A stretch of 64,000 nt of DNA from Thermoleophilaceae bacterium (GTDB lineage Bacteria > Actinomycetota > Thermoleophilia > Solirubrobacterales > Thermoleophilaceae), in contig JBBDYQ010000002.1 in NCBI GenBank assembly GCA_040901445.1, forward strand, positions 124,001-188,000. Reading direction: 5' to 3'. The position numbers and the translations under genes are program-made. Shown piece after piece: positions 33,727 through 64,000 of the stretch (its first letter is position 1; the number at the start of each line of letters is the position of its first letter). The notes below the pieces were generated by a model. It was not told the DNA's origin. It searched no databases and saw nothing but the letters and a program-made list of their open reading frames with translations.

Positions 33727-34314
33727 TCAACCGCCGGGCGCCGCCTTGCGAGCGGCTTCGAGCAGCTCCTCGTTGGAGGCGTTGTCGCCCGAGTGCTCGG
33801 CCAGGTGGGTGTAGGGCACGGAGCCGTCGGAGAGCACGATCATCACCCCTCCGAGCTGGGCCGGGTGGCCGACCGTGCGGCCCTGGCGCACGCGGGCGCG
33901 CAGGCCGCGGCGCAGGCCGTCCACGATCCGGCGCGGGCCCATCACCTCGTTGGCCGTGCCCACCTTGGTGCCGGCGGCGCGGTAGGCCTCGCGGCGATGG
34001 TCCACCAGAAGCTCCAGGTCCACGCCCTGGCTCTCTCGGAAGTGCTCCGCATTCGCGGGCGTGCCCATGCCGATGACGGCCACGCGAACGCCGACGGCCT
34101 CGAACTCGTCCCGGGCGCGATGCAACTGCACCGCGTGCGCGCGGCAGTACGTTCAGCCGTAGTGGCGCAGGAAGACCAGCAGAGCCGGCCGCTCGCGCCA
34201 GAGGTCGCCGAGGCGGACGTCGTTGCCGCGCCAGTCCTGCAGGACGATGTCCGCCAGCTCGTCCGCGCGCTGCAGGGCGTGGGTGCGCTGACGGTCCTTG
34301 GCGAAGCCCAGCAC
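33727..34314 (-). CDS. Selenoprotein: peroxiredoxin-like (SelL-related/PRXL2-type) redox protein
   Basis: A 195-residue AhpC/TSA-like thioredoxin-fold protein. It is read from GTG 34314 through an in-frame TGA at 34155-34153 (residue 54) to TGA-free sequence ending APGG. Around the TGA the frame reads LLVFLRHYG-U-TYCRAHAVQL. The TGA occupies the first redox position of the C-x-x-C motif (U54, C57), and similarity to the family is continuous on both sides (ELADIVLQDWRGNDVRLGDL before, VRVAVIGMGTPANAEHF after). A -10 box TAGGGT (34327-34322) predicts a leaderless start at 34315. A hairpin directly follows the TGA. An annotation starting after the TGA would lose the active site. Confidence 0.82.
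34125..34148 (-). promoter_or_regulatory. SECIS-like hairpin after the UGA codon
   Basis: Beginning 4 nt after the TGA on the minus strand, ACTGC pairs with GCAGT and CGCG with CGCG around a CGCA loop, with a GT bulge on the 3' arm. Its position (apex 14-17 nt after UGA) is near that of bacterial SECIS elements, but the usual GGU-type loop is not obvious. Confidence 0.45.
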
Positions 34315-34331: not shown

Positions 34332-34405
34332 GAACGTCCCGAACTCCCCCGGTATAGGGGGGCGCGCGGGACGTTCATCATTTCGGGGCGCGCGGGACGT
34401 TCATC
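34332..34405. repeat. Direct and inverted repeats between selenoprotein and ppx genes
   Basis: GGGGCGCGCGGGACGTTCATC occurs at 34359-34379 and again at 34385-34405 (period 26). Its GGGACGTTC part is the inverse of GAACGTCCC at 34332-34340. Three copies of one nonamer within 75 bp suggest a protein binding site or simple duplication. Confidence 0.5.
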
Positions 34406-63470: not shown

Positions 63471-64000
63471 ATGGCCACGGTGAGGCTCACGGAGCTCTCC
63501 CACGGGGCGGGCTGCGCATGCAAGCTCGACCCCGGCGCGCTCTCCTCCCTGCTCGCGGGCCTCCCGCGATCCAGTGACCCCGACCTGCTGGTGGGCTTCG
63601 ACACCTCCGACGACGCGGCCGTCTACCGCGTCTCCGACGAGCTCGCGATCGTCACGACCACCGACTTCTTCACCCCGATCGTGGACGACCCCTACGACTT
63701 CGGGCGCATCGCGGCTGCCAACGCGCTATCCGACGTCTACGCGATGGGCGGCAGGCCGCTGACCGCGCTCAACCTCGTGGCGTGGTCGCTCGCGGAGCTC
63801 GGCGCCGAGCCGCTGGGCGAGGTGCTGCGTGGTGGCGCCGAGGTGGCGGCCACGGCCGGGGTGGCGATTGCCGGCGGTCACTCCATCGACGACCGCGAGC
63901 CCAAGTACGGGTTGGCCGTGACGGGGGTGGTGCACCCGGAGCGGGTGGTGCGCAACTCCGGTGGCTCGCCCGGGGATGAGCTGTGGTTGACCAAGCCGGT
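63471..64000 (+). CDS. selD: Selenide, water dikinase SelD, 3' end cut off
   Basis: 176 residues are visible before the window ends. The N-terminus RLTELSHGAGCACKLDP carries the SelD active-site loop: C15 and K18 correspond to Cys17 and Lys20 of E. coli SelD. DDAAVYRVSDELAIVTTTDFFTPIVDDPYDFGRIAAANALSDVYAMGG and GVAIAGGHSIDDREPKYGLAVTG are the ATP and metal-binding segments of the SelD/ThiL/PurM superfamily. It makes selenophosphate from selenide and ATP for selenocysteine synthesis, which fits the in-frame TGA gene at 33727. selA and selB may lie beyond the edge. Confidence 0.9.
   Translation, partial: MATVRLTELSHGAGCACKLDPGALSSLLAGLPRSSDPDLLVGFDTSDDAAVYRVSDELAIVTTTDFFTPIVDDPYDFGRIAAANALSDVYAMGGRPLTALNLVAWSLAELGAEPLGEVLRGGAEVAATAGVAIAGGHSIDDREPKYGLAVTGVVHPERVVRNSGGSPGDELWLTKP

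Follow-up and report, generated by a model that had tools for sequence, protein, structure and literature searches.

The selenoprotein SelL carries a UxxU redox motif with a diselenide. It has been termed a Prx-like protein (PMC2398784), and Prx-like proteins containing selenocysteine (Sec) in a UxxC motif have long been known (PMC1088965, PMC2398784, PMC13188914). The inventory of selenoproteins in Table 1 of PMC13188914, dating from 2026, includes Prx-like thiol:disulfide oxidoreductases with UxxC or UxxU motifs, assigned to PF00578, and a Prx-like group assigned to cd02970. According to PMC1088965, the small apical loop of the bacterial SECIS contains a guanosine. Open-access text searched for selenoproteins related to SelL and for Sec in Thermoleophilia yielded no paper on the gene family described below, which is weak evidence of novelty.

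Here we analyze a locus in a 64,000-nucleotide stretch of DNA from a Thermoleophilaceae bacterium (the window), for which the original prediction, made from the sequence alone, had proposed an overlooked selenoprotein with UGA in its redox motif. Considering the Sec machinery of the genome, the Cys found at the same column in homologues and a covarying hairpin tied to the UGA form, this reading stands: comparison of the sequences indicates that the gene product is almost certainly a selenoprotein, made by recoding of the UGA and belonging to the SelL-related/PRXL2-like branch of the peroxiredoxin superfamily. The predicted protein shares with the inventoried Prx-like selenoproteins a Prx-like fold and Sec as the first residue of the motif. 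It differs in that NF040769, the model it matches, is not among the domain identifiers in that table, and in that the motif of the cd02970 entry is UxxS.

An in-frame UGA in a SelL-related gene

The gene occupies positions 33727–34314 of the minus strand and would encode 195 amino acids, from a GTG start at 34314 to a TGA stop at 33729–33727. Translation of this span bore out the predicted HYG-U-TYC: the frame has only one internal TGA, at codon 54 (34155–34153), surrounded by the residues VFLRHYG-U-TYCRAHAVQLHR. The UGA (34153–34155, minus strand) is predicted to specify selenocysteine 54, residue 1 of the UxxC motif. The second motif position is encoded by TGC (34144–34146, minus strand); the residue, Cys57, is invariant in the alignment and is the predicted resolving cysteine. 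The GTG start, likewise part of the original prediction, is plausible, because in sequence alignment it falls on the Met of the Cys orthologue L026 (VLGFAKDRQ versus MLGIAKTRQ). Ordinary gene calling had been expected to begin past the TGA, and the mechanical ORF list indeed contains for this locus only a GTG-started ORF of 134 amino acids downstream of the TGA (33727–34131), from which the active-site motif is missing. It is at most plausible that the gene has been overlooked, since NCBI already curates a SelL-named model that the protein passes.

Similarity extends across both sides of the TGA, as had been claimed. The match to NF040769 ('SelL-related redox protein'; 135.1 bits versus a curated cut-off of 120) spans residues 20–187, and the match to PF00578 covers residues 18–117; PF13911 (AhpC-TSA_2) matches residues 63–174 with 59.8 bits, the cut-off being 27. 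The NF040769 cut-off is also passed by both paralogues in the genome and by the Cys orthologue. In an alignment of 16 sequences, in which U is displayed as C, residues R50, H51, G53 and C57 as well as the position of residue 54 are invariant. Cys replaces U at the exact column, and no homologue lacking both Cys and Sec at this site was seen, all of them having either Cys or TGA there.

The kinship with SelL and PRXL2 proposed at the outset holds in terms of profile and fold, but does not extend to the motif. SelL and the window protein have in common a Prx-like fold with Sec first in the redox motif, whereas the second residue is Sec in the UxxU of SelL and an invariant Cys in the UxxC found here. 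NF040769 is a subfamily model named for its relation to SelL, and the window protein, which exceeds its curated cut-off, is SelL-related and not SelL. Nor does RHYG-U-TYC correspond to the TxxU (PxxxTxxU) motif of the classical Sec peroxiredoxins. The predicted structure (pLDDT 89, pTM 0.86) is thioredoxin-like, with a helix that would begin right after residue 54 and thus place UxxC at its N-terminus; together with the profile match, this model points to a PRXL2/AhpC-TSA_2-type fold. The best PDB match by both sequence and fold is human prostamide/PGF synthase (PRXL2B; PDB 9us9, 9usa), with an E value of 9e-10, a Z score of 21.1 and 22% identity, and in the sequence alignment U54 and C57 fall on its catalytic CxxC. 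The human enzyme has Cys in place of Sec and its eukaryotic substrate is not relevant to the window protein; alignment and model suggest a relation of homology only. Peroxiredoxin Q/Bcp and AhpE are the next fold matches, and ResA-type thiol-disulfide oxidoreductases are also among the matches.

An intergenic palindromic repeat of 45 bp is present in one copy just upstream of the gene (34332–34376, minus strand). The repeat is an imperfect palindrome, GAACGTCCCG-N25-CGGGACGTTC, and has an inner stem of a C-run and a G-run; the genome contains 24 copies of nearly constant length, and 30 further genomes from the same taxonomic family contain no copy. Its form suggests either a REP-type repeat or a hairpin operator. 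The TATACC that had been taken for a -10 box sits at the apex of this palindrome and was ruled out as such, and the region upstream of the selenoprotein gene yielded no consensus promoter. A half copy of the repeat is present at 34393–34405.

Sec machinery and the distribution of Sec and Cys forms

The search for the Sec machinery proposed with the original prediction recovered selA, selB and tRNA-Sec in the genome, in addition to selD. The tRNA-Sec has a UCA anticodon and scores 68.7 bits, the next-best matches in the genome being tRNA-Ser genes; selA scores 473.9 bits and is directly adjoined by selB (306.6 bits). As for selD, which had been placed in the window, only its 5' part is found there (63471–64000, plus strand; TIGR00476, 256.7 bits), the remainder extending past the window end. 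Because it is located 29 kb from the selenoprotein gene and has Cys in its own loop (HGAGCACKL), selD shows capacity and not an operon.

The genome has three NF040769 members, each with exactly one internal stop, which is TGA and falls at the same codon. The motif is RHYG-U-TYC in the window gene and RHFG-U-PFC in the two SelL-related selenoprotein paralogues L022 (G000:C2:85294-85761) and L023 (G000:C5:30889-31383), both of which have the TGA at the UxxC position together with an AGUU hairpin. Across the order, the site codon was read in 37 family members and is TGA in 26 and Cys in 11, with nothing else observed. The TGA form is associated with selA, which was detected in 21 of 25 TGA-form genomes versus 55 of 207 others (p 3e-8); for well-assembled genomes (completeness of 90% or more, contamination of 5% or less) the values are 10 of 10 versus 31 of 102 (p 2e-5). 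The four TGA-bearing genomes in which selA was undetected are represented by incomplete assemblies (68–87%), and three genomes of one genus that are without selA (G028–G030) have the Cys form.

A maximum-likelihood tree with 60 rows indicates about seven changes between Sec and Cys, at least five of them forced by well-supported branches. The pattern search of contigs spelled Cys at the site and so yielded Cys forms only, which were used solely as Cys outgroups. Sec and Cys members of the family also occur side by side in one genome, as in the pairs L029/L051 (G023) and L050/L027 (G002).

A covarying hairpin downstream of the UGA

The RNA following the UGA can form a bacterial SECIS-like hairpin (34116–34135, minus strand), with an 8-bp stem (34135–34128 paired with 34123–34116) and an apical AGUU loop (34127–34124) that begins 25 nt past the UGA. 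It resembles the SECIS of the E. coli fdhF type in being a stem-loop soon after the UGA, at a spacing in keeping with bacterial SECIS elements, with a G among the first two bases of the apical loop (here the second). The differences are the perfect 8-bp stem with a tetraloop and the position of the loop, which in fdhF starts 17 nt past the UGA.

Of the 26 Sec genes, 21 can form the stem and the AGUU loop, which reads AGUC in one of them. When these 21 genes are aligned without gaps, 97.0% of the cells are paired, and 20 cells are doubly changed (compensatory), compared with a mean of 5.0 after shuffling; two-sided changes affect six of the eight stem pairs. Sliding the structure by 1–3 columns lowers the pairing to 19–51%, and RNAalifold recovers the identical stem unprompted. 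The loop overlies a Leu codon. Every one of the 20 Sec genes with Leu at this position has the rare codon TTG, which makes up only 14 of the 379 other Leu codons in these genes; of seven Cys genes with Leu there, one uses TTG. In the Cys orthologue L026 the peptide HAVQLHR is the same, but the Leu codon is CTC, which breaks the apex. On this comparative sequence evidence, the covarying AGUU hairpin is decisive for UGA recoding.

A covariance model trained on 17 genes from other genomes, leaving out the genome of the window, detected the element in the window with 71.2 bits (E 1.6e-22), the next-best score being 14.2. Genome-wide, the three selenoprotein genes rank 1–3 (71.2, 62.2 and 36.8 bits), followed by a match of 22.3 bits. 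Past these three genes the genome-wide search for further selenoproteins gave weak matches only, and none of the five inspected (L173–L176 and L179) contains a convincing gene whose redox motif is interrupted by an in-frame TGA. Some Cys forms still receive moderate scores from the model, as the RNA is constrained by the encoded peptide. Sec and Cys forms are indistinguishable in the total folding energy of the 45 nt that follow the codon (p 0.70); raw folding energy is uninformative because the GC-rich background hides the signal, and position-specific pairing and covariation were therefore used. For the window gene taken alone, pairing of 8/8 is reached in 10% of synonymous shuffles (p 0.10). 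Given this value and the equal folding energies, the case for the hairpin rests on comparison.

The AGUU hairpin is absent from the five Sec genes of the EHLVEV-type subclade. This third subclade (L025, L028, L052, L053 and L055) has TGA at the same codon and a different downstream region; a shorter hairpin with a G-first loop (CCUC-GUC-GAGG) may be its SECIS. In the Cys form L050, 8/8 pairs of the stem are kept and the AGUU loop is lost (GCCU), which possibly reflects a recent change from Sec to Cys.

Alternative readings, proposed mechanism and implications

Given that Cys orthologues are widespread and that a single base separates TGC or TGT from TGA, the TGA might be a nonsense mutation in a pseudogene or a miscalled codon of an ordinary Cys enzyme. 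Both were rejected, and we regard them as improbable in the extreme. The TGA recurs at this codon in 26 genes from numerous independent assemblies and in each of the three paralogues, and not a single TAA or TAG was counted inside family members across the 232 genomes of the order. Comparison with each of 11 orthologues over 33 codons before and 35 codons after the TGA gave dN<dS on each side, indicating that both sides are under selection as protein. Enrichment of selA and a covarying hairpin would be unexpected of errors. It is also very unlikely that the UGA is a real stop, with either two genes or a restart at GTG 34131 from which the 134-amino-acid ORF is made separately. The ORF list does contain that ORF; its product, however, would be without the active-site motif and, judging from the predicted structure, without the first strands of the fold. 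In addition, the break would be straddled by the invariant residues R50, H51, G53 and C57, the Cys orthologues are single intact proteins, and the hairpin and the selA association would be left unexplained. Reassignment of the stop codon was ruled out, as TGA also serves as the stop codon of this very gene and a dedicated tRNA-Sec is encoded in the genome.

For a recoded selenoprotein, the main role might still not be peroxide removal. Thiol-disulfide exchange, or reduction of a special substrate of the endoperoxide or quinone type, is a possibility that we entertain tentatively: the nearest solved structure is prostamide/PGF synthase, UxxC is like the motif of thioredoxin-type oxidoreductases and ResA-type proteins are among the fold matches, but the peroxiredoxin Q and AhpE folds are nearly as close. 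We predict that the product acts as a thioredoxin-linked selenoperoxidase or reductase. In the mechanism we propose, SelB bound to the hairpin would deliver Sec-tRNA-Sec to the UGA, yielding the 195-amino-acid enzyme, whose thioredoxin fold would present U54-x-x-C57 at the N-terminal end of a helix. Attack by Sec54 on the peroxide (or disulfide) substrate would give a selenenic acid, which Cys57 would resolve by forming a selenenylsulfide; the enzyme would then be recycled by thioredoxin or a comparable reductant. When selenium is absent, translation would halt at residue 53 and the active enzyme would not be formed, so that the supply of this enzyme and of the two Sec paralogues should track selenium.

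Selenoproteins of this kind are already known, and what this analysis chiefly adds is the AGUU hairpin with its covariation, the TTG signature of the loop and the presence of three Sec paralogues in one genome. Gene callers routinely truncate selenoprotein genes, and the window gene thereby loses its active site. The covarying hairpin provides a lineage-specific SECIS model that tells true Sec genes from pseudogenes. Together with its two paralogues and relatives, the locus shows that a soil-type actinobacterial lineage has a complete Sec system, and the pairing of Sec with Cys orthologues makes the benefit of selenium to the enzyme directly testable. It is conceivable, though somewhat doubtful, that these genes constitute an uncatalogued UxxC PRXL2-type selenoprotein subfamily centred on Thermoleophilia-like Actinobacteria, with its own SECIS (an 8-bp stem and a conserved CAGUUG apex), several paralogous lineages in one genome and at least five Sec/Cys exchanges. 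If so, the subfamily would serve as a natural experiment on the reasons for retaining selenium in a peroxidase.
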